Part shown: in pieces, positions 769-17,669 of the stretch
Position numbering within the stretch: position 1 is the first letter of the stretch
Layout: each line of letters starts with the position of its first letter
The notes under the pieces: generated by a model
Seen by the model: the letters and a program-made list of their open reading frames with translations, nothing else
Database searches by the model: none
Told to the model about the DNA's origin: nothing
Translations under genes and position numbers: made by a program
Virus record (IMG/VR): IMGVR_UViG_3300032224_000191
Coordinates: 1-23,095 of that record
Strand: one strand, 5' to 3'
Source of the DNA: a virus
Length of the DNA stretch: 23,095 bases

Positions 769-972
769 TTATGGCTTATTATTGTCTAGTTGATGTAAAG
801 CAATATATGATTCTGTTGTCATATCTTGATCTTTAATGCCACGATGTCTAGCAAAACTTTCTTTTAACAGTGTATTACAATCTGGACAATTAACATAAGC
901 CAAATTTGCATCTATTGTTGAAGCAAATAAATCTTTATCATCCATACATACTGAGCACCAAAATTTAAACAT
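769..972 (-). CDS. Mini-protein with two CxxC pairs (zinc-ribbon-like)
   Basis: A 67-residue protein overlapping the end of the fibre gene by 8 bases. Two ATGs are available, at 978 and 972. The Shine-Dalgarno GGAG sits 7 bases before the second and almost touches the first, so 972 is preferred. Two cysteine pairs, CSVC near residue 6 and CPDC near residue 30, are spaced as in a small zinc ribbon; the remainder is polar. There is no helix-turn-helix or catalytic motif. Position between the S74 fibre and a coiled-coil gene suggests a late-expressed accessory protein, but a DNA- or protein-binding regulator is equally possible. Function is unknown. Confidence 0.7.
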   Translation of the reverse strand: MFKFWCSVCMDDKDLFASTIDANLAYVNCPDCNTLLKESFARHRGIKDQDMTTESYIALHQLDNNKP

Positions 973-3643
973 TTGCATTCTCCAATTGTACTAGTCTTGT
1001 TTCAAGTGTATCTATTTTATCTTTCATATCTTTAACCATTGGAATTAAAAGAAATGCAAGTTTATGTTCATTTCTTAACGCCACTGGTTTTCCTGCTAAA
1101 TTTCTTTCAACAAAAAACCCTAGACCAGCATCTTCAAGATCTTCAGCAATTGGTCCCATTGCATGAGTTCCCCATAAAGAATCATCTGTTTCTGGATGAT
1201 TATCAATATATGTATAAAAAGCTGGTTTTACGTTTAAAATTCTTTCATAATATGTTTGTGGTAAATAATTTATATTTTCTTTAAATCTTCTAGATGAACT
1301 GTCGTTGTATAGCGCTCCAGTGTATCTTAAGTTGACTGCTCTTAATGTGTTTCTAATTTCTGCAGCATAATCTCTATTTGTTGAAGTTGTGTCTACTGCT
1401 AATCTAAATACATCTGATTTGGTATTAACATAAAATTGTTTAGTTTCTGATCCTGTATTTGATCCAGCAATAATTGAGTAAGGCCCAGTTGTTCCAGATC
1501 CAGATTCCCAGCCAATTTGAATTGTATTTCCAAATAAAATTCTTGGTTTATCTGCAAGTGTACCATTAAAATCTGCATTGCTAAGATTAAACTTTCCAAT
1601 GTTTCCACTTGTTGCATATACTTCACCTTTTATTGATATAGTACCACCACTGCTGATGGTTAGATTTTGAGACCCTCCACTATATCCACGAATTCCATTC
1701 CCATCTACAGCAAATCCATTTGTTGTATTTCCACCAGTAATATTTAATCTTGCAACATCAATAGTTCCAGTAGTAATACGATCACCATTTATTACAGTAG
1801 TATTATATGCAAGAACTGTATTAATATCTCCTGCCGCCATTTTTAAATCTGCTGCATCTTTTGCTTGTTGAGCTTTTGTTGCAGCTACTGTTGCGTCATC
1901 TCCTGCAGCTACAGCTTTATTATAAGCAGCATCAGCTCTACTTTGTGCAACAGAAGCAGCACCACTTGCTGCTGTTGCAGTACTAGATGCTGCTGTTGCT
2001 GTATTAGAAGCTGCTGTGGCGGTGCTGGAAGCAAGAACAATTGAGTCGTATGTAGATCCACTATTTATTACAAGTTGACCTGTTATTTGTGCTCCAGAGG
2101 CATAAAGTACTCCGTTTGAATCAACTTTAAATTTTGCTGCATTATCTATTGGGCTTTGGCTGCCTGCCCAAATTCTATAATCACCCGTTGAACTTAAATA
2201 AACACTATTTGAAGGTGCTGATCCTACTGATATTTGTCCATTAGCGCTATCTAAAACTACTCCGTTATTAGATAAAGTAGTTGCCCCTAAATTCCATCCT
2301 CCAATTAATCCAGATGTAGAATTTAAATATCCTGCTGTATCAAGAGAAAAAGTTTGTGTACCAGCAGAATTATATGCAAAAACTCCTGAGCTATTTAACC
2401 TAACTCTTTGTCCGCTATTTGGTAGTGTTCCTGCATATAAAGAACCTGCAGATAGCTGAACATCTCCGCTAAATGATCCACCTGTTGCATTTATTTTTCC
2501 CGTGGTATATAGGTCTGAGCCATTCCAATAAATAAATGCAGTTTCACTACCGACTCTAAAATGACCACTATTTAACCAATAGTTATTTCCAACATTTGTA
2601 GTTGATTTATTTAAAATAATTCCATTATTAACTGTTGTGTTTGCTGTATAAGTAGGAACAATAGTAGTGCTATTGTTAACTTTTTGAACAATTTGAGTTC
2701 CTATTTTAAATAAATCTTCTGTTGCTCCGCCAATAGATATGTAAGATTTTAACCTTGACCATGCTCCTCCTGCTGTAGTATCTGTTGCAGAAAATGTACC
2801 TGATGTTTTGTTTGCCCAATCAATTGCATTATATGCACTTTTTGGAGCAACCTCATAATAATAAGTTATATTAGGAGTTAATCCAGTTACTACAAAAGTT
2901 GTTGTATTTATTCCATCTACATTGTTATATTCCCACATGGGGTTTGAAACTGTTGCTGGGTTGTCAGTAGACCATCTTATTGAATAGCCTTTAGTATTTA
3001 CATCTGTTGATGCCACCCAAGTAATTGTGGGCATAGCACTAAAACCAGATTTATCGTTTGGATCTACTACAGCAGATGCGCTTGTGGTAGTCATACCACC
3101 TGGAGGAGTAGATGTATCTGGGTCAGGATTTAATGGTGTAACAGATAAAGGGCCAACATCAGTTTTGTTTAAATCATCCCATTTATCTCTTGTTCGTACA
3201 GTTATCCACCTTGTAGCAATAGAGTTTGTAGGAATTGTTACGTTTGTAGATGTTCCTCTATAAACTTCATTGCCAATGGACGTTGATGTAAGGCTTTCAT
3301 AAATTACAATATCTTCTTGAACACTTAATGGATCAAGATTAAATTTAACTCCATAATTTTTATATCCTGGAGTTAATGTTAAATTTAAAACACCTTTGGT
3401 TAAATTGGGTATAGCAAAATTTTCCATCCATATAGGGGATGAGTCGCTTAATTTTATTTCTTTTGTATCAGGGTTTTCATATTTGTATTTAAACCAAAAT
3501 TTATATTTTTTGTTTTTAATCAAAGGCAAATTAATTTTTACTGTATAAGAATCTTTTGATGTAGATGCAGCTGCAGCTGCTGATGCCGCATTTGTTTTTT
3601 CTAAATCAGCTGGAAAATAATTTCCGCTTAATGGATCGTACAT
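965..3643 (-). CDS. Tail fibre with Fn3 domain, coiled-coil stretch and C-terminal S74 intramolecular chaperone
   Basis: An 892-residue fibre. The ATG follows the upstream stop directly (TAA-ATG), implying coupled translation. Order of parts: an Ala-rich start (residues 19-29); Ig-like beta domains to about 170; a fibronectin type III domain at about 203-288 (ITWVASTD, GYSIRW, VVTGLTPNITYYYEV); a shaft of short Gly/Ser/Asn-rich beta repeats at about 300-535; heptad repeats at about 539-600; more shaft with GDRITTGTIDVARLNITGG; and from about 780 a Peptidase_S74-type endosialidase chaperone domain (SSSRRFKENINY, GPIAEDLEDAGL) ending in a short coiled coil. In that family a Ser/Lys pair releases the C-terminal chaperone after trimer assembly. 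Here Ser783 and Lys788 have the usual 5-residue spacing. Likely role: host-surface receptor binding. Confidence 0.88.
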   Translation of the reverse strand: MYDPLSGNYFPADLEKTNAASAAAAASTSKDSYTVKINLPLIKNKKYKFWFKYKYENPDTKEIKLSDSSPIWMENFAIPNLTKGVLNLTLTPGYKNYGVKFNLDPLSVQEDIVIYESLTSTSIGNEVYRGTSTNVTIPTNSIATRWITVRTRDKWDDLNKTDVGPLSVTPLNPDPDTSTPPGGMTTTSASAVVDPNDKSGFSAMPTITWVASTDVNTKGYSIRWSTDNPATVSNPMWEYNNVDGINTTTFVVTGLTPNITYYYEVAPKSAYNAIDWANKTSGTFSATDTTAGGAWSRLKSYISIGGATEDLFKIGTQIVQKVNNSTTIVPTYTANTTVNNGIILNKSTTNVGNNYWLNSGHFRVGSETAFIYWNGSDLYTTGKINATGGSFSGDVQLSAGSLYAGTLPNSGQRVRLNSSGVFAYNSAGTQTFSLDTAGYLNSTSGLIGGWNLGATTLSNNGVVLDSANGQISVGSAPSNSVYLSSTGDYRIWAGSQSPIDNAAKFKVDSNGVLYASGAQITGQLVINSGSTYDSIVLASSTATAASNTATAASSTATAASGAASVAQSRADAAYNKAVAAGDDATVAATKAQQAKDAADLKMAAGDINTVLAYNTTVINGDRITTGTIDVARLNITGGNTTNGFAVDGNGIRGYSGGSQNLTISSGGTISIKGEVYATSGNIGKFNLSNADFNGTLADKPRILFGNTIQIGWESGSGTTGPYSIIAGSNTGSETKQFYVNTKSDVFRLAVDTTSTNRDYAAEIRNTLRAVNLRYTGALYNDSSSRRFKENINYLPQTYYERILNVKPAFYTYIDNHPETDDSLWGTHAMGPIAEDLEDAGLGFFVERNLAGKPVALRNEHKLAFLLIPMVKDMKDKIDTLETRLVQLENANV
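1844..2029 (-). repeat. Ala-rich heptad-repeat stretch in the fibre gene
   Basis: Residues 539-600 of the fibre are nine consecutive 7-residue units, starting SSTATAA, SNTATAA, SSTATAA, SGAASVA and becoming more diverged (QSRADAA, YNKAVAA, GDDATVA, ATKAQQA). The first three units are also near-repeats at DNA level (gctgctgttgc and variants). The pattern predicts a trimeric coiled coil linking two beta shafts. Unit number could vary between relatives by slippage or recombination. Confidence 0.75.
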
Positions 3644-8383: not shown

Positions 8384-8851
8384 TTATACCTCTTCTAAAG
8401 AAAGAGATACATCCCAAAATTCTTGCGGGACTGAAGCCATAGTAGACCGAATATTTCTTTTAGATACAGTAAAATTACAAGATGTAAAAGAAGCCAAAAA
8501 CACTTCATCTCTTCCAGCAACTGCGTTATAGGATATTTTAATTTTAAATGTTCCCTTACCTTTATTTAAATAAAAGTCTCTAATATCTTGTGCACCCATT
8601 CCGCCGTCCACTGTTAATGTATTATATGTCGGAATATCGCTCCATGAAACAGAAACTGTTTTTTTATCAGCAGTCCATATTTTTCTTAAAAACCCATTAG
8701 ACATTCTTTGAGTTTTTTCAATTCTATCTATATCTACAGATACTGCAGCCCTATTATGCTCAGACAATTTTGTCCAAGTTGGTGTGGCAGCATCAGTGCC
8801 TGTGTCAAAATAAAGTAATGATCCTACTGGAAGTGTCATTGGATAGCTCAT
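8384..8851 (-). CDS. Distal tail protein / tube-like protein next to the tape measure
   Basis: A 155-residue protein whose ATG overlaps the tape-measure stop (ATGA). It has no clear Shine-Dalgarno of its own, so translation is probably coupled. The sequence is beta-rich with one central helix (AQDIRDFYLNKG), as in tail-tube and distal-tail (Dit-like) folds: WTKLSEHNRAAVSVDIDRIE, KTVSVSWSDI, GTFKIKISYN, VFLASFTSCNFTVSKRN, then EFWDVSLSLEEV at the C-terminus. Its position, directly after the tape measure and before the hub, is where siphophages encode the distal tail adaptor. A tube-tip initiator related to the major tail protein is the alternative. Confidence 0.72.
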   Translation of the reverse strand: MSYPMTLPVGSLLYFDTGTDAATPTWTKLSEHNRAAVSVDIDRIEKTQRMSNGFLRKIWTADKKTVSVSWSDIPTYNTLTVDGGMGAQDIRDFYLNKGKGTFKIKISYNAVAGRDEVFLASFTSCNFTVSKRNIRSTMASVPQEFWDVSLSLEEV

Positions 8852-11800
8852 GTTTTAATACTCACATTCATTGAATTACCCTTCATTTTAGCATTTAACT
8901 TTGTATCTTGTCCAATGGCGTCCTTTGTCATTGACACCACTTGTCTTACAAACGCATCAGTATTCATATCCTTAGATGGGTATATGTTTTGAGTAAGGTT
9001 AATTACACTGCCACCGCTTTGTGCATCACGCATTGGCTCAAACATTTTTGCTGCTTGACCAACATCGTACCTTGGAGAAGCAAATGGAAGTTTAGCCATA
9101 TTAGGAATAACCATTCCTCCAAATGCCATTTCTGGTCCACGATCTCCAACAATTGTAGGAACTTTTGGATTAAGCTTCATGGTTCCATAGCCAGCTTTTT
9201 CTACATTATAATTTCCATACATTCCTGCGCTAGTAATTTTCCATTTTGTGCCAGATTTATCTACAAATAATGTTCCTTTTTCTCTACCCTGTACGCCTGC
9301 TGCTGATAAAGCACCTTCTCCAACTGTATTTTTCATGGTGCCAGTTGTTGATACTGCATAAGATATCGCCTTTAAAGCATTACCGCTTGCATCTACACTT
9401 TTAGAAACATCAGCCTTTTTGCCATTAATATATACATCACCCTTTACTTCAATACCTTTTGCGGCAAGTCCTTTAGCAACAGCATCACTTGTTGCTGTTA
9501 CCATATCAAGACCAACTTTGCCTACATCTATACCGCCTACTGTAGGAACTTTTACTCCTGCAGTTTTTGCAGTGTTAACAACAGCTGCTGCATCTTGCTT
9601 TCCAGCGTCTTTATTTTCATTAGTTCCATATTTAACATAATCTTCTAATGTTTTTCCAGCAGCGATTGCATTAAGTCTTAATGTAGTCATTGCTGTATTT
9701 ACATCATCAATTTTTTGTTTTTGAGTTGCAATTTTATCATTAAGTTTTCCAAGAGATTCTCCAGCAAGCGCCGCTTGATTTGACATCTTTTCTTGACCAT
9801 CATTAATTGCTTTAATTTTAGCTTCAAGTGGAGCATTTTGTAATTTAACAGTATCTTCAATTGCTTTCTTTTGTGAGTTATATTGTAGATTAGCTTGTAG
9901 CCCTTCCATATCAAGGCTTGCTTGTTGAGCTTTTGCTGTATCTCCTGTTGCAAGTGCTGCTTGATATTCCGCTTGCTTTTTAGCAATCTCTCTTGCAATA
10001 TCTCCTTCTTGTTTTGCAGCATCAAGAGCTTTTAATCTTGCATCTGCAAGTTTATTATTTGCATCAATTTGTGCCTGAAGACCCTTAAGCTGATCTTTTG
10101 TACTTATTTGTTGTGCAACAGATTGTCCTTTTGCTGCCTTCTCTAAAGCCTTTTGTTGTTTAGTTAATTTTTCCAAGTTAGCATATTGATCTTTTAACAA
10201 ACCTGTTTTATTAGCAGATGCAGTAGCTTCAGCTACGCCATCTGCAATTTTAGATAATGTTGAAACTGCTTCTGCTCCAAGTTTTGATAAATCTCCTGTA
10301 AATCCTTTTGCTGCAAGATCCATTTTAGCCCATAAAGAAACTACAGTATCCATAGGGTTAATTATTTTTTTAAGTTCTGGATTTTGTTTAGTCATCTCAG
10401 CAATTGTTTCTTTTGTTAATAAAGTTTTAGATGATTCAAGTCTATTAAGTCTTTCAAGCATTTTTGCTTGAGCTTCATATTCAGTTAAAACTTTTGTGTT
10501 TCCAGTTTTGTCAGCTTTTGCAGCCTTCTTGCTTTTATCAATTAAATCTTGAATTCCTGTCTCTATAGCATTAAGTCCAGTGTTAACTGCTCCAGCACCT
10601 TCACGTCCACCTTCTTTAGCAGCATTACCGTATCCACCAACAGCTTGTGCTGCAGCATCTTGTGCTGTTTTAATTTTATTAAATTTAGAATTACCTAAAG
10701 TAAATGCAGCGGCATCTTTTGCTTTATTAGACATTTGGAACATTGCCCAAATCTTTTTTGTTGCATCTTCTGCAGACAAACCTGCAGCCATCAACTGAAT
10801 CTTTAAATCTTCAGCAAGCTTTTCAGTATTCTTTTTACCCTTAGTTTGATTAATAAGTTTAATTTGATCCCCATAGGTTTCCTTAACTTCTTTTCTAAGT
10901 TTTTTGTATTCTTCAATTGTTAGTTTAATTGGAGTGCCAGCATCCTGCATGCTTTCATAAAGAAGTTGATTTCTTTCTCTAAGCGCTTCTATATTTTTAA
11001 CTGTATCTCCAAGCTTTGAATTATAATCTGTAAATTTTAATCCTGCTTTTTTAGCAGCTTCTGATGTTAATCCATATTGAAGCATTCCAATTCTTAAATG
11101 CTCATTGTGATTTTTCCATGCTTTCCATAAACCAATTGCTACGGTTGTACCCGCTGCTAATACAAGGTTTGCTCTTGTCATTCCAAGTGCAACCTTGCCA
11201 AGAATGCTTCCAAATTTTCCGCCTGACGTTGCCAGCGCTTCCATTTTTGCACCATAAGCACTCAACATTTTTGTTTGTCCGCCAAGTTGTGCAGATAATC
11301 CCTTTGCTCCAGTATTAACTGTAGATCCTATTGGTGTCGACCATCTACCTCTTTCTGATATAGGGGTAAATTCTTTTGAACTTCTGCCCATACCTGATCC
11401 TCCGCCAAGCATGCTACCAAGCATTGAACCAATAAAAGCTCCTCCTGGTATGCCACTCATTTGACCAAGTGATTGTCCAGCAGTCATGCCAATCATGCTC
11501 ATAATCAGAGGTTTAATCATTCCACCAATTCCATATTTATTTGGAACTATGCCTCCTGAGTTTCTAGGAACAAATAGTTCTGGACCTTTTTCTCCTACAA
11601 CATACGGAGTATTTGCAGATACTGGTCCTCCTGTAGCTTTTCCTTCAAGATTAAATACAAGCTTCTTTAAAGACTCTGTTAATGGAGTATCTTTTTTAGA
11701 TTCCCAATTTAAATATTTTGTTTTTAATATTTCTTTATCTATTGGGGATAGTTGTTTTAATACCGCTTTATCACCTATCATATCTGATGCTGCTGATCTT

Positions 11801-14800
11801 ATAACTGAATCCATGACACTTGGTTCTAATGCATTTTTCAATGAACCTTTTGCATCTTTAACGTAGCCATAAGGTTTTTCTTTTGCAAGAGCTGCTGCAA
11901 ATTTATCATAGAATAATTTTTGAGTATTTTTTCTTAAACCAGTATTTGCAAATAAAGTTTCTGCCATTTGTATAGATAGAGAATTTACTCCCCATGGTGC
12001 AGACTCATACATGCTTGGCTTAGGCTCACCAGTTGGTCCAAAACCAGCGCCAATTCTATGCATAGCCTTACCTTTAAGAACATTTCCAATTAATCCGCCA
12101 ATTGCAAATCCATTTTCTGGCGTCTTAAATGCATTATCAGAAAGGCTAACTAAGTGACCCTTTTGTCTGCGCTTTAATTCATCGCCCGCAAGCATCTTAG
12201 CAATTGCTGCTGGAGTCATTGTTTTTTCTGGAGCTATCTTTAATGATGAATGAATTCCATGTAGGTCTCCATAAGTTTGTCTTCTTGCATCAGATAGTCT
12301 TTGAATCATTGCATTATAAATAGCTTTTTCTTCTGCATTTAAATCAAATCTACCGATAGTTTGTTTTAACTTAGGAAGAGCTTTGTTAATTTCTTCAAGC
12401 ATGCGCTCATTATATTGATCTGCTGTCATTCCCTTTGGAATACTTGCAGTTGATTCAGCAAAAAACTTCTTTGCTCCGCTGCCCTTTACTCCCATTAAAT
12501 TAACCATTGCTTGGTGTTTAAATGAAGGCATTGTTGCAGAATAATCTCTTTGCCCAGAGGCAGTTGCAAATACACCAGCAGGACCAACATCTGCTAATAT
12601 ATTTCCAGATAGATTGCCTCTTCCAAGGTCTTTATCTCCACGTAATGCTGATGCAACTAATTGTCTAAAATATTGATCAGTTGTAAATTTACCATCTTGA
12701 TTTGCTATAGCAGGATTGTATTTAGACTCTAAAGCAAGCAGTGTTCTTGCTCCCTTTGGATCTGTAGGATCTCTCATTACAACAACTCTTTGGTTAGGTG
12801 TTTGTAGTCCATGTACATCACGAGCAATTTCTGTTGCTCTTAATTCTGCAAGTGCTGCTCTTTCATCAAGAACTGGCTTAACAAAAACTTTATCTCCGCC
12901 CTTATTATAAACTCCACCAATTCCAGGTACTGGGAAACTTCTTCCTGATGTTGGCTCTAAAAGTCCATCATAATCAGTTATTGGAGTCTTACTAAATCTA
13001 GAATCTTTAACTGCAAGACTTGCTTTTTCCATAGCAGCTTTTGCTGCTCTTTGGGCTTCTACCTGCTTAATAGTTCTTGGCATTCCAAGGAACATTGCTT
13101 TACCGCCACCAAATAGTTTTTGTGCAAATTTTCCTGGAACTGTTCCTCCAGCATTAAGTCTTTTGCCCTTTTTAGATTTTAAAAAATCCATAAATACTTT
13201 AGTTATTCCAAAGTTATGCTTTAGTCTTGTTGGGGCTTTAATAATTCTTTCTTCAGTTCCAGGACCTGTACCAAGACCTAAAACCTTTCCTATTGTATCA
13301 ATAGCCATTCTTTTTTCTGTTTCAGTTTGTGGCAATCTATCTATAAAAGGATTATTATGATTTTCTGTTAATTTTGAAAATGTGTTTGTCCAAGCGTTTA
13401 TATCTTTATTTCCTGCTTGTGCTTGTCCAAAATTACCAGTAGCGCTGTACCCATATTGAGCTGCTCGTATATCATGCTCTGTAGTATATCCGTGAGTATT
13501 TGGAATCCATTTTTGTGTTTTTGGATCCCATGCAGATCTACCAAACAATTCCATTTGCAATCTTTTAATCTCGCTTGGGTTTGCAAATCCCATTTTTGTT
13601 AATGTAGCAAGCAAAGAAGGTGATGGATGAACAGCAGAGTTTCTATTTGCTACTGGTGTAGGCATCATTTTTCCACTAGCTGATCGTAATGGTTTTTTTA
13701 AAAGCCCTCCACCTAATTTTTTATCTAATTCTCTAGTTTGCTTTTCTTTTATTTCAAGCATTCTTTCATCATTAATTGTATCTGTTTTAGGATCATAAGC
13801 ATATTGTCTTGCTTCATCATATAATCTTTTTGCTGTACGAATAGCTTCAACTTCTGACATTCCTAATTTATTAAGTATTGCTGCATCATGCATCACATGC
13901 CTGATTTGGGTATCTTCTAAAAAGTTTTTTGGAATTGATAATCTTGATACATAAGCAGACGCACCTCTTATGTTTTGTTCTGCTTGAGCTCTTATTCTAC
14001 CGCCGTCAAATCTTCCCATTCCACCAGTATTACCTGGCCCACCATTTAATTGAATCATTAAACCTGGATCACGTTGAGCAATTTTTGCTGGAATAACAGC
14101 TTCTCCAGGAGTTAGCACTACTGGTACTTGACCTCCATATTCAAATGCTGGAGTTCCTCCAAGAAGATTGCTTATAATTGGCATATTTTCTTGTGTTGAT
14201 TCTTTATTAATAACAAATGATCCAGCCTCTGCTGTTGTGTGATACGTATCGCTATTTCCAGTTCCTGGAACAATTCCACCATCAGCAAATTTAGGTTTAG
14301 TTGTTTGAATATTATATCCTGCACCTGAAGTTCTAACTCCACCTAATGCTCTTGCAATTTTATCTACTAAATCCTTTGTTGTTCCTTTGTGGAACATTTC
14401 TTTCATATTTGATTTACCCGTTGTTGGATCAATAACTGGCTGTGATGTGAGAGGAACAGTTGTAAGGTTTATGCCTCTTCCCATCGCTGTTGCTGCAGAT
14501 GAAGCAGTTTCTGCAAGCATTGTTTCAATTGTTGCATTTAATTGTATAACCTTTGCTCTTGCTTGATCTACAGTTATTTTACTTGCTTGAAGCTCTGCAA
14601 CAATTGCTTGTGTTTCTGTTGCTGCCATTTGTGTAATTTCTGAAAACTGTGGCAAAAGAGCTTGATATGAATCAGCTAAACTTGAGGTAACTGTTCCAGT
14701 AGCTGTAACTTCTGCTTTTAATACTTTAAGCTCTGCTTCTGATTGCATTGCAATTGCTGCTGTCATTGCATGCCACTTTGCTGCTTCTGTTGCTACAACT

Positions 14801-16995
14801 CCAGTTGATATACCATTTACAGAAGTTACTCCTGGAATCTTAGGCATATCTTGATTCATGTATGCTTGTGGATTTTTACCAATTCTAACATTTACTGGAG
14901 ATGCCCCTGGAACTGTTCCAAATATAGTTCCTGGTTGTTGCGTTTGAGCAGGAATCATATGAGACATATCTCTTGAATATGGAGCTCCAACTAATGGATT
15001 ATTCTTATCAACAATTCTTTGTCCGCTTGAAGTTCCTGCTGCAATAACTCCGCCTGCAACTGTAGATATTGCTGGTTGAACTGCAACCTTTGCTGCATCT
15101 GCTTTTAATACAAGTGTGTCAAATGAGGCCGCAAGTGTATTTACTGCATTTGTTAAAATAGTTGTTGCTTCTGTATCTGAATAAAATGATGTAGCTAATC
15201 CTTTTGCTGCAGCATCTGCAGCCATAATTTCTGGAGTAAGAAGTTTAAATCCTTGTCCACCTTTTGCAAGCTGCTTTAAATGAAATATACCTTTAATTAC
15301 ATAGCCAATAAAGTTACCCATTACACCAGCCATCATAATAAGTGGGCCTGCTACTGCTGTAAGTCCTCCAATAGCATTTAAAAATGTTTTAACTGGGCCT
15401 GGAAGATGCTGGAAGAATTTAATAATTCCATCTATAACATTTAATACCTTTGTGCTAATCTTTAAAAATTGCTCACCTGTTTGTGCCAGATCAGCTTGTA
15501 CTGAAGCAAGAGCTCTTTTAAATTGACCAGAAGCTGACTGGGTCATCATCCCTAATTCTCGTGATGATATGTTTGCAAGATCTGTAGCACTTGCCTTCAT
15601 TAAATCCATAACTTGAAGTGTTTGTGAACCAGACTTTCCTAAGTTATCAAATAAAGCTGACATTCTTGCAAATTGAAATTTTCCAAATAGTTGTTCAATT
15701 GCTCTTGATTTATCTAAAGGATTTAATCCATCTAATGCTGATTGCAAATCTAAAATTGTTTGTGTTAGATCTCCCGCATCTTTAGTTACAATTCCTCTTA
15801 AATCAATTCCAAAACCTGCAAACATTTCTGTTGCAACTTTAGTTGGATTAATAAGAGATGCCATAGCGGATTTAATTGCATTTGCGCCTTCTGCTGCATT
15901 TACTCCACCTTCTTTCATTGCTGTTAGATAAAGAGCTAAATCTTTTACGCTTCCGCCTAAAGCTTTAATTACTGGGCCAGCTTTAGGAATAGCCTCTGTT
16001 AAATCTGCAAGGCTAGTTGATGTTTGATTTTCAACTGCGTTAAGAAAATCAATAGATTCTGTAAGTTGATCTGTGTTTTGTTTAAAAGCATTTTGAATGG
16101 CAAGAGTTGCTTTCATGGCATCTTGTCTATCAACTTCACCCAGTACTGCTAATCTTGATGTTTGCTTGGTAGCTTCTAGTAAATCATTTCCTTGCTTACC
16201 TGTTGCTGCAAGATCTGCTGCTAAAGAGATTGTATCTTTATATGCAACTCCATATGAACCCGCAATTTCTTTTGCTGTTGCAGAAACATCTTTTCTAACC
16301 TTTGCAAGTTCTTGCGCTGAAACTGCAGATAGTCCACCATACACCTTTGTAAGTCTTACAAGTTCTGCATCTGCTTCTCTAAAAGCTTTTTGTGCTGCTG
16401 CGCCAAATGCTGCTAGGGGAACTGTCAAACCTACTGTTAATTGACGTCCTGCCCATTGAGTATTTTTACCCCAGTTAATAAGTTGATTAGATCCATCAAG
16501 CATAACTTTATTCATGATGGCTAGCTCTTGTCTTGCAATTGCAGACTTATTTTTTATTTCATCTAAACCTTTTGCAACCATTACGTTGTATTGCATTAAG
16601 CCTTGTGCATTTTTACCTACTGGTTGAATGATTGCTTGCTCAAGCATAACCTGCTGCTTTGCAAGCTCTCTAACTAAATTGCTGGTTTTCTTTGTATGAC
16701 CATTCCATGTATTGTAATAATCATTTAACTTAAGTCTACCTCGATCTAAATTCTTGCCAAATTTTTCTACATCTGAAGTAAGGGATACAAAATGTTGCGA
16801 GAACTGGCCTGTTGAAGTAAGCGTTGTTGCAAACGCCTTATTCATTACTGCAATTTGATTTGCAAGCTTGGCGTTAGTTCCCGCTGTTGTTTCTTGTAGT
16901 TTTAAGAGTTGGGCAGTAACCGCAGCTAGCTGAGTTCTTAAACTCGTAAAGTCTGCGTTGGCGGTAATATTGGTAGTGATTAAATTATCTGCCAT
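8848..16995 (-). CDS. Tape measure protein, 2715 residues, with kinase-like insert
   Basis: The largest gene in the window; it starts 9 bases after the chaperone fusion gene and has only a weak ribosome site. Residues about 170-420 match the PhageMin_Tail/TP901 tape-measure core (QLTVGLTVPLAAFGAAA, AEIAGSYG-like helices, EGGVNAAEGANAIKSAMASL). Hydrophobic stretches lie at about 538-570, 1828-1868 and 1935-1960. Glycine-rich tape-measure motifs recur: GGIVPGTG and AGSFVINKESTQ near 905-935, LTPGEAVIPAK near 961, VGEKGPELFVP at 1800, VGDRGPEMAFGG at 2616. Residues about 1000-1790 are not rod-like and include the kinase-like segment (1357-1485). Long coiled coil at about 2240-2460. The rule of about 0.15 nm per residue gives roughly 400 nm of tail, or about 270 nm if residues 900-1830 fold outside the rod. 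Confidence 0.95.
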   Translation of the reverse strand: MADNLITTNITANADFTSLRTQLAAVTAQLLKLQETTAGTNAKLANQIAVMNKAFATTLTSTGQFSQHFVSLTSDVEKFGKNLDRGRLKLNDYYNTWNGHTKKTSNLVRELAKQQVMLEQAIIQPVGKNAQGLMQYNVMVAKGLDEIKNKSAIARQELAIMNKVMLDGSNQLINWGKNTQWAGRQLTVGLTVPLAAFGAAAQKAFREADAELVRLTKVYGGLSAVSAQELAKVRKDVSATAKEIAGSYGVAYKDTISLAADLAATGKQGNDLLEATKQTSRLAVLGEVDRQDAMKATLAIQNAFKQNTDQLTESIDFLNAVENQTSTSLADLTEAIPKAGPVIKALGGSVKDLALYLTAMKEGGVNAAEGANAIKSAMASLINPTKVATEMFAGFGIDLRGIVTKDAGDLTQTILDLQSALDGLNPLDKSRAIEQLFGKFQFARMSALFDNLGKSGSQTLQVMDLMKASATDLANISSRELGMMTQSASGQFKRALASVQADLAQTGEQFLKISTKVLNVIDGIIKFFQHLPGPVKTFLNAIGGLTAVAGPLIMMAGVMGNFIGYVIKGIFHLKQLAKGGQGFKLLTPEIMAADAAAKGLATSFYSDTEATTILTNAVNTLAASFDTLVLKADAAKVAVQPAISTVAGGVIAAGTSSGQRIVDKNNPLVGAPYSRDMSHMIPAQTQQPGTIFGTVPGASPVNVRIGKNPQAYMNQDMPKIPGVTSVNGISTGVVATEAAKWHAMTAAIAMQSEAELKVLKAEVTATGTVTSSLADSYQALLPQFSEITQMAATETQAIVAELQASKITVDQARAKVIQLNATIETMLAETASSAATAMGRGINLTTVPLTSQPVIDPTTGKSNMKEMFHKGTTKDLVDKIARALGGVRTSGAGYNIQTTKPKFADGGIVPGTGNSDTYHTTAEAGSFVINKESTQENMPIISNLLGGTPAFEYGGQVPVVLTPGEAVIPAKIAQRDPGLMIQLNGGPGNTGGMGRFDGGRIRAQAEQNIRGASAYVSRLSIPKNFLEDTQIRHVMHDAAILNKLGMSEVEAIRTAKRLYDEARQYAYDPKTDTINDERMLEIKEKQTRELDKKLGGGLLKKPLRSASGKMMPTPVANRNSAVHPSPSLLATLTKMGFANPSEIKRLQMELFGRSAWDPKTQKWIPNTHGYTTEHDIRAAQYGYSATGNFGQAQAGNKDINAWTNTFSKLTENHNNPFIDRLPQTETEKRMAIDTIGKVLGLGTGPGTEERIIKAPTRLKHNFGITKVFMDFLKSKKGKRLNAGGTVPGKFAQKLFGGGKAMFLGMPRTIKQVEAQRAAKAAMEKASLAVKDSRFSKTPITDYDGLLEPTSGRSFPVPGIGGVYNKGGDKVFVKPVLDERAALAELRATEIARDVHGLQTPNQRVVVMRDPTDPKGARTLLALESKYNPAIANQDGKFTTDQYFRQLVASALRGDKDLGRGNLSGNILADVGPAGVFATASGQRDYSATMPSFKHQAMVNLMGVKGSGAKKFFAESTASIPKGMTADQYNERMLEEINKALPKLKQTIGRFDLNAEEKAIYNAMIQRLSDARRQTYGDLHGIHSSLKIAPEKTMTPAAIAKMLAGDELKRRQKGHLVSLSDNAFKTPENGFAIGGLIGNVLKGKAMHRIGAGFGPTGEPKPSMYESAPWGVNSLSIQMAETLFANTGLRKNTQKLFYDKFAAALAKEKPYGYVKDAKGSLKNALEPSVMDSVIRSAASDMIGDKAVLKQLSPIDKEILKTKYLNWESKKDTPLTESLKKLVFNLEGKATGGPVSANTPYVVGEKGPELFVPRNSGGIVPNKYGIGGMIKPLIMSMIGMTAGQSLGQMSGIPGGAFIGSMLGSMLGGGSGMGRSSKEFTPISERGRWSTPIGSTVNTGAKGLSAQLGGQTKMLSAYGAKMEALATSGGKFGSILGKVALGMTRANLVLAAGTTVAIGLWKAWKNHNEHLRIGMLQYGLTSEAAKKAGLKFTDYNSKLGDTVKNIEALRERNQLLYESMQDAGTPIKLTIEEYKKLRKEVKETYGDQIKLINQTKGKKNTEKLAEDLKIQLMAAGLSAEDATKKIWAMFQMSNKAKDAAAFTLGNSKFNKIKTAQDAAAQAVGGYGNAAKEGGREGAGAVNTGLNAIETGIQDLIDKSKKAAKADKTGNTKVLTEYEAQAKMLERLNRLESSKTLLTKETIAEMTKQNPELKKIINPMDTVVSLWAKMDLAAKGFTGDLSKLGAEAVSTLSKIADGVAEATASANKTGLLKDQYANLEKLTKQQKALEKAAKGQSVAQQISTKDQLKGLQAQIDANNKLADARLKALDAAKQEGDIAREIAKKQAEYQAALATGDTAKAQQASLDMEGLQANLQYNSQKKAIEDTVKLQNAPLEAKIKAINDGQEKMSNQAALAGESLGKLNDKIATQKQKIDDVNTAMTTLRLNAIAAGKTLEDYVKYGTNENKDAGKQDAAAVVNTAKTAGVKVPTVGGIDVGKVGLDMVTATSDAVAKGLAAKGIEVKGDVYINGKKADVSKSVDASGNALKAISYAVSTTGTMKNTVGEGALSAAGVQGREKGTLFVDKSGTKWKITSAGMYGNYNVEKAGYGTMKLNPKVPTIVGDRGPEMAFGGMVIPNMAKLPFASPRYDVGQAAKMFEPMRDAQSGGSVINLTQNIYPSKDMNTDAFVRQVVSMTKDAIGQDTKLNAKMKGNSMNVSIKT
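12541..12939 (-). other. Kinase-like segment inside the tape measure
   Basis: Residues about 1353-1485 of the tape measure have the layout of a HipA/phosphoinositide-kinase-like fold. A GIGGVYNKGGDKVFVKP hairpin has Lys1373 in the ATP-lysine position. A helix with Glu1384 (ALAELRATEIARDVHG) follows. Then come two strands (QRVVVMRD, TLLALESKYNP) and a helix (YFRQLVASALRGD) leading to DKDLGRGNLSGNIL, where Asp1456 with Asn1461 or Asn1465 could be the catalytic loop. Asp1469 or Asp1484 may be the metal ligand. The match is by pattern only; enzyme activity is not shown and the fold could be degenerate. Confidence 0.45.
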
Positions 16996-17004
16996 ATGTA
17001 TATG

Positions 17005-17669
17005 TTACTCTATAGAGTATCCTAATCCTGCTCCGATACCGAATCCAGCTTCGCTGGCAAGTGCACCTTGTAGTCCAACAACATCATCTGCTGATGCATT
17101 TATACCAAGTGCTCTTCTTCTAACATCTTCGAAGGATGACCCCTCCTCATTTTCATTACTGCTTTCATTTAAATCAACACCTTGAATTGAAGCTAAGAAC
17201 TTTCTTTTTTCCGATTCAGTTTTTTGCATTGACTTAAAAGTCTGGACCATCTCTGGCATTGAAAGATTATCTTCTAGTTCTTCGTAATTTTTCCAATTAC
17301 CTAAAAGAAATACTTCCCCTTCTAAAGCGGCTAGATCTAGTTCTGTCCAGCCAGTCCCGCTGCCGCTAATAGGTTTGGGTCGTCCATCTTAATTCCTCCG
17401 CAAATCTCAAGAATGCGGTTGATTGTTGGAACGTCAAGTGTGTCTTCAAATGCGTCTTTGTCCTTTACTAAATCAGGCAGTTGCTTTTCTAATGCTACTG
17501 CACATGCTTCAATAAGAATTGTGAGTGTTTCATCTTCTGATGTTACTTCTTGTGTCTTCTGAATGACTTGCATAAACTTACGAAGCTCTTTAATTGTTAA
17601 AGGCTTAAGCTTAACTGTTGCGCCATTTTGTAGCTGAATTTCTTCAACATCGTATACTGTAGTTGCCAA
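17005..17669 (-). CDS. Tail assembly chaperone GT, made by -1 frameshift
   Basis: The longer of two chaperones that share a start. Ribosomes read codons 1-99 in the frame of the short form (17669-17373), slip back one base at C CCA AAC and continue from 17373 to the TAA at 17005. The result is 221 residues. After the slip the frame is open without interruption and reads PISGSGTGWTELDLAALEGE and onward to LGNWKNYEELEDNLSMPEMV. The -1 frame is blocked just upstream (TAA in ATT AAG), so the slip must occur in the short window that holds the heptamer. Position directly before the tape measure matches lambda G/GT and its relatives, which hold the tape measure soluble and recruit tail-tube subunits. 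The stop lies 9 bases before the tape-measure ATG. Confidence 0.88.
17337..17669 (-). CDS. Tail assembly chaperone G (short form)
   Basis: A 110-residue protein with a TTG start, supported by AGGAGG placed 6 bases upstream and by the lack of a better ATG. It begins LATTVYDVEE (initiator read as Met) and is an acidic, helical protein typical of the G-type chaperone: ATVKLKPLTIKELRKFMQVI, TLTILIEACAVALEKQLPDL, PTINRILEICGGIKMDDPN. It ends at TAG, 12 codons past the slippery site. It is expected to be made in excess over the frameshifted GT form. Its own promoter lies about 30-58 bases upstream, after the terminator of the tail-tube gene, so chaperones and tape measure can be transcribed apart from the tail-tube gene. 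Confidence 0.9.
   Translation of the reverse strand: MATTVYDVEEIQLQNGATVKLKPLTIKELRKFMQVIQKTQEVTSEDETLTILIEACAVALEKQLPDLVKDKDAFEDTLDVPTINRILEICGGIKMDDPNLLAAAGLAGQN
17373..17379 (-). promoter_or_regulatory. -1 frameshift slippery heptamer C CCA AAC
   Basis: The minus strand reads CCCAAAC with zero-frame codons CCA AAC, which is the canonical X XXY YYZ pattern (X = C, Y = A). It lies in the small overlap where both zero and -1 frames are open. By eye the following 40 bases show only a weak 4-bp stem (CAGC / GCTG), so no strong downstream stimulator was identified. Confidence 0.88.

Follow-up and report, generated by a model that had tools for sequence, protein, structure and literature searches.

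A candidate exchangeable kinase-fold module with an atypical active site in an actinophage tape measure protein

Tape measure proteins (TMPs) are generally regarded as length rulers that carry cell-wall hydrolases. The virus record IMGVR_UViG_3300032224_000191, which was analysed here as one window covering the whole 23 kb of the record (36% G+C), encodes a TMP of 2715 amino acids (aa), in the middle of which lies a domain with a predicted kinase fold that appears to be carried as an exchangeable module. An enzyme domain fused into a TMP is also found in phage P23-45, in which the domain is a virion RNA polymerase whose proposed site of action is the host envelope on entry, and for which no description of module exchange was found (PMC10770324). 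In addition, injected polyvalent proteins carry kinases and ADP-ribosyltransferases (ARTs) (PMC5512222), and MuF-VIP2 ART fusions are present or absent among related actinophages (PMC7302621). Both resemble the proposed TMP module as virion or injected carriers of protein-modifying domains that vary between close relatives (PMC5512222, PMC7302621), but the carrier proteins are different. Moreover, unlike the TMP domain, the polyvalent kinases belong to the truncated Ser/Thr/Tyr-kinase group, possess intact active-site residues and do not have a HipA/CotH/PI4K-like fold.

As for kinases themselves, the HipA/HipT Ser/Thr kinases (HipA_C, PF07804) share with the TMP domain the predicted fold (Z 9.7 and 9.2, respectively), a conserved Lys and the Asp-x4-Asn spacing. 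The TMP domain differs from them in having no Pfam or hhalign match, in lacking the DFG-type Asp (D332 of HipA), in being embedded in a TMP and in having no HipB-like antitoxin gene beside it in the window. The CotH spore-coat kinases (PDB 5jd9, 5jda) are the best structural match, yet the identity is 10% and no Pfam match was found, and the TMP domain is part of a phage virion protein without a conserved Asp at the DFG position. The type II PI4-kinases and CtkA-like atypical kinases are similar in fold (PI4KII-alpha Z 9.8, CtkA Z 10.9), but no sequence relationship to them was detected and the DFG-type Asp is again absent from the TMP domain. No earlier description of a kinase-fold TMP domain turned up in the open-access papers searched on tape measures combined with kinases, HipA, pseudokinases and phosphatidylinositol kinases.

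Predicted kinase fold and its family

The original prediction, made from the sequence alone, placed a kinase-like segment at window positions 12541-12939. This segment corresponds to TMP residues 1353-1485, and the residues it was said to contain (Lys1373, Glu1384, Asp1456, Asn1465 and Asp1484) are indeed present, while the real unit is larger, with a fold spanning residues ~1328-1612 inside a module of residues 1289-1628.

8848..16995, minus strand: TMP gene, 2715 aa (open reading frame (ORF), PhageMin_Tail and PHROG matches)
12160..13014, minus strand: kinase-fold domain as modelled, residues 1328-1612 (AlphaFold2, Foldseek, VIA-align)

The AlphaFold2 model of residues 1328-1612, built with 52 diverse metagenomic homologues, reached a pLDDT of 90.5 and a pTM of 0.86; an earlier model from 23 sequences, with another alignment and length (pLDDT 77), retrieved CtkA, HipA, CotH, PI3K and PI4K. 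The modelled N-lobe comprises a hairpin with the Lys strand, a long alphaC helix and two strands, and is followed by a helix, a short-stranded catalytic loop and a helical lobe. According to VIA-align 2, all 50 of the 50 matches listed were kinase-fold proteins, headed by CotH (5jd9; Z 12.0, 213 residues, 3.9 A, 10% identity) and continuing with CtkA (Z 10.9), MavQ (10.0), PI4KII-alpha (9.8), HipA (9.7), LepB (9.5) and HipT (9.2), with PI3K/PI4K and then Bud32, RIO1 and YabT at lower ranks. The best Foldseek match was CtkA (E-value 4e-4, probability 1.00), and a BFVD structure search returned weak matches only, to unnamed proteins or giant-virus kinases. A two-lobed kinase fold of the protein-kinase-like superfamily is supported by the model, and the kinase-like fold originally called from motif order was thus borne out by structure prediction and structure search, in a HipA/CotH/PI4K-like form. 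As well, a motif H1579-G-x-H1582 (window 12250-12261, minus strand, residues 1579-1582) is strongly conserved in the predicted C-lobe.

Homologues were gathered by five scans of viral contigs, for which either the segment itself or alignments of it served as queries. The domain was found in 306 ORFs, many of them on the same contigs, which yielded 105 distinct domain sequences falling into 26 clusters at 75% identity, with identity to the window down to ~49%. The TMP N-terminus is present in 300 of the 306 ORFs, and the remaining six had lost the start to a locus or contig edge, or to an upstream stop (L087 = L250). In L087 and L250, the TMP ORF is split by a stop codon that precedes the kinase module by ~75 residues; this may be an assembly error, a frameshift or a real split. 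When 50,697 phage records were searched with the module by tblastn, no match was obtained, and a scan of GTDB species genomes revealed no relative. The ratio of nonsynonymous to synonymous substitution rates (dN/dS) was 0.04-0.13 for the kinase-fold core against 0.10-0.14 for the conserved TMP N-terminus, and the core was the most constrained part of the TMP in most comparisons. Because there are more than 100 distinct homologues, invariant residues and strong constraint on the core, the observation goes beyond chance.

Conserved and missing active-site residues

Conservation was counted over the 105 distinct domain sequences, and the roles of beta3 Lys and alphaC Glu were assigned by motif order and the strands of the model.

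12907..12939, minus strand: Gly-rich conserved loop SFPVPGIGGVY, residues 1353-1363 (family alignment)
12877..12879, minus strand: Lys1373 (VFVKP), predicted beta3 Lys (105/105)
12844..12846, minus strand: Glu1384, predicted alphaC Glu (103/105)
12613..12642, minus strand: catalytic-loop-like RGDKDLGRGN, residues 1452-1461 (D1454, D1456 and N1461 each 105/105)
12553..12576, minus strand: GVFxxASG, residues 1474-1481, DFG-equivalent segment (Ala1479 105/105, no conserved Asp)

No variation was seen at Lys1373, Asp1409, Arg1452, Asp1454, Asp1456, Asn1461, Asp1469, Gly1471 or Ala1479, and position 1384 holds Glu in all but two of the sequences. The domain therefore presents the features of the kinase superfamily, namely a beta3 Lys, an alphaC Glu, and a catalytic Asp with a metal-binding Asn in the D-x4-N arrangement, and the spacing D1456-x4-N1461 equals D309-x4-N314 in all seven aligned HipA proteins. 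Of the five residues proposed originally, Lys1373, Glu1384 and Asp1456 proved to be conserved, while Asn1465 (68/105) and Asp1484 (58/105) did not, and the partner of Asp1456 is the invariant Asn1461 instead of Asn1465.

The DFG-equivalent position was set by spacing and predicted strands: HipA has an invariant Asp332 at Asn314+18, and the same spacing in the TMP domain lands on Ala1479. Position 1477, right after the last predicted short strand, was considered as a lost DFG Asp, since a few lineages have Asp at this place. This was rejected, because the position holds nine residues (S/K/A/G/D/E/N/Q/T) and must have changed 25 times or more on the tree, which speaks against a conserved catalytic role. 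The possibility that the invariant D1469 takes over as metal ligand was weighed but not adopted; its DxG motif between the two short strands suggests a beta7-beta8 turn.

An exchangeable slot with alternative cargo

Between relatives, the N-terminus (~1-950) and the C-terminal part (from ~1630 or 1786) of the TMP align, and the middle varies.

12112..13131, minus strand: exchangeable kinase-fold module, residues 1289-1628 (exactly absent from the TMP of L348)
13132..14013, minus strand: upstream variable cargo region, residues ~995-1288 (exchanged for unrelated sequence, 27-34% identity, in several module-bearing relatives)
13132..13161, minus strand: Gly-rich linker LNAGGTVPG that borders the module upstream, residues 1279-1288
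11641..12111, minus strand: neighbouring module, residues 1629-1785 (also in TMPs without the kinase module)

In the TMP of L348, window residues 1-1288 and 1629-2557 align adjacently, both at subject residue 1319, and therefore residues 1289-1628 are cleanly absent there, with the join falling within Gly-rich GGxVPG linkers. Conversely, the upstream stretch (1000-1310) of several relatives is unrelated (27-34% identity) while the kinase core is 87-94% identical, and since the upstream part is replaced and the core kept, the kinase module behaves as a unit. A separate scan with the TMP N-terminus alone gave 51 complete TMPs, of which 12 contain the kinase module, eight an ART-like module and 31 neither; these absences were called with profiles, and close relatives recur among the loci, which therefore do not count as independent. 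Both modules together occur in none of the 323 kinase-bearing and 13 ART-bearing ORFs. Complete TMPs span ~1000 to 4270 aa, with or without the kinase module.

The different module that fills the kinase slot was seen in L330 (L330:13643-14575) and belongs to a family of nine sequences (L330, L332, L356, L358, L362, L369, L377, L381 and L393; TMP residues ~1290-1630), in which the Arg of GTLYRG, the Ser of RRSSWS and an ExE motif are invariant. On motif evidence only, this alternative module may be an ADP-ribosyltransferase-like domain of the R-S-E type. In a tblastn search with the ART-like stretch, other phages matched over short lengths only, close to the linker at the C-terminal end of the stretch, and many of these matches lie in TMPs.

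In addition, several further unrelated cargo modules were observed mid-protein, between LTPGExV and GGxVPG linkers, in the other 31 TMPs, including L336, L346, L350, L352, L354, L361, L365, L372 and L382. Neither the ART-like module nor the other cargo modules could be given a functional name from Pfam, NCBIfam, PHROGs or PDB. An OmpA-family domain (PF00691, E-value 2.7e-18) is also present at residues 2703-2796 of one kinase-module TMP (L072:4146-16949, 4268 aa).

Interpretation and genomic context

It is somewhat probable that this actinophage TMP carries a swappable injected effector module with a HipA/CotH/PI4KII-like kinase fold and an atypical active site. According to this proposal, residues ~1328-1612 would fold as a HipA/CotH/PI4KII-like kinase domain, which would be carried as a single exchangeable cargo module (1289-1628) between Gly-rich linkers, leave the virion with the TMP at infection and reach the host envelope or cytoplasm. 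Early in infection, the module would bind nucleotide and may modify a protein of the host or the virion via an atypical active site without one metal ligand. Known TMP behaviour and the module exchange suggest that the module is probably injected, and the injection reading gains support because the slot is exchangeable and holds an ART-like module in related phages. The swapping of whole modules, with predicted protein-modifying folds in one slot, is behaviour to be expected from host-acting cargo and not from a ruler segment. The retained Lys, Glu, Asp and Asn speak for chemistry, and the missing Asp speaks against its usual kind. More tentatively, TMPs might serve as a polymorphic effector-delivery platform, with one slot for interchangeable kinase-like, ART-like and other modules and with the kinase-like one active through a new site lacking the DFG Asp; we regard this wider scheme as possible but rather doubtful. 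If true, the alternation of kinase-fold and ART-like modules in one slot would mean that the ruler also serves as a vehicle for interchangeable effectors, which enter together with the genome and modify the host. Moreover, a large natural kinase-fold family without one metal ligand, in which the rest of the site is kept, would allow a direct test of how much change kinase chemistry tolerates.

Several results weigh against the proposal of an injected kinase-fold effector. No conserved DFG-type metal-binding Asp follows beta8 in the 105 sequences, and ordinary kinase phosphotransfer, which the original prediction held possible if the domain is active, is unsupported because this Asp is absent. 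Pfam searches with 13 members at E-values up to 10 detected no kinase family, with HipA_C, PI3_PI4_kinase, CotH and actin-fragmin kinase all negative (HMMER filters drop weak matches), and HipA_C (PF07804) had no match in the window record. The profile matches to HipA_C, PI3_PI4_kinase and actin-fragmin kinase by which the prediction was to be checked were thus not obtained. PDB sequence-profile searches likewise found no kinase, and hhalign against a small HipA profile of seven sequences gave a probability of 0.3%. As for structure, Foldseek TM-scores were 0.3-0.37 with a high global root-mean-square deviation, and with such low TM-scores the kinase similarity is therefore remote. For the ART-like module, Pfam, PDB and NCBIfam profiles returned no match. 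The missing kinase sequence match and the low TM-scores are what a common alpha/beta arrangement mistaken for a kinase fold would give; however, the model is confident, two models agree, all listed VIA-align matches are kinase folds, and the invariant residues fall on kinase catalytic positions with the right spacing, which makes this explanation very improbable.

The alanine at the DFG-type position and the hypervariable position 1477 are also what would be seen in a pseudokinase, which keeps the fold and perhaps nucleotide binding, performs no chemistry and works by binding or as a switch, for instance by blocking or recruiting a host factor or by controlling TMP release. A domain free of chemistry need not retain the catalytic Asp and Asn, though, and here, even at ~49% identity, Lys1373, Asp1454, Asp1456 and Asn1461 never vary and Glu1384 hardly does, under strong purifying selection; a pseudokinase is a serious but unlikely candidate. 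The module sits in the protein that sets tail length, and all the ORFs in which it was found are tape measure ORFs, which would suit a folded spacer for tail length, assembly or channel, that is, a structural or envelope-crossing part whose kinase fold is incidental. Yet relatives do without it or have another module in its place, TMP size varies regardless of it, and conservation concentrates in the active-site motifs, so a structural role appears clearly unlikely. With these alternatives weighed, a probably injected effector module with a kinase fold and an atypical active site is the reading preferred here.

The minus strand of the window contains a run of head and tail genes, and the assignment of the TMP rests on its PF10145 domain and on its neighbours, which are tail tube and minor tail genes. 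The TMP also matches several PHROG tape measure families, including phrog_10030 (E-value 2.6e-118).

15682..16281, minus strand: PhageMin_Tail (PF10145) core of the TMP, residues 239-438 (Pfam E-value 1.5e-28)

The closest cultured phages are Streptomyces phages, with a capsid protein ~57-60% identical and a TMP N-terminus ~37% identical to those of the window. WhiB, a type of protein characteristic of actinobacteria and of the phages that infect them, is encoded on 11 of 16 long related contigs; the window phage therefore probably has an actinobacterial host. The TMPs with the kinase module belong to freshwater phages, mostly uncultured and probably actinobacterial.

Between the tail tube and TMP genes (window 17005-17669, minus strand), two small ORFs lie in different frames, a layout that is the same as that of tail assembly chaperones made by programmed frameshift. 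Finally, a tail protein encoded at window 965-3643 on the minus strand has a Peptidase_S74 (endosialidase chaperone) domain at its C-terminus and also matches fibronectin-III weakly.
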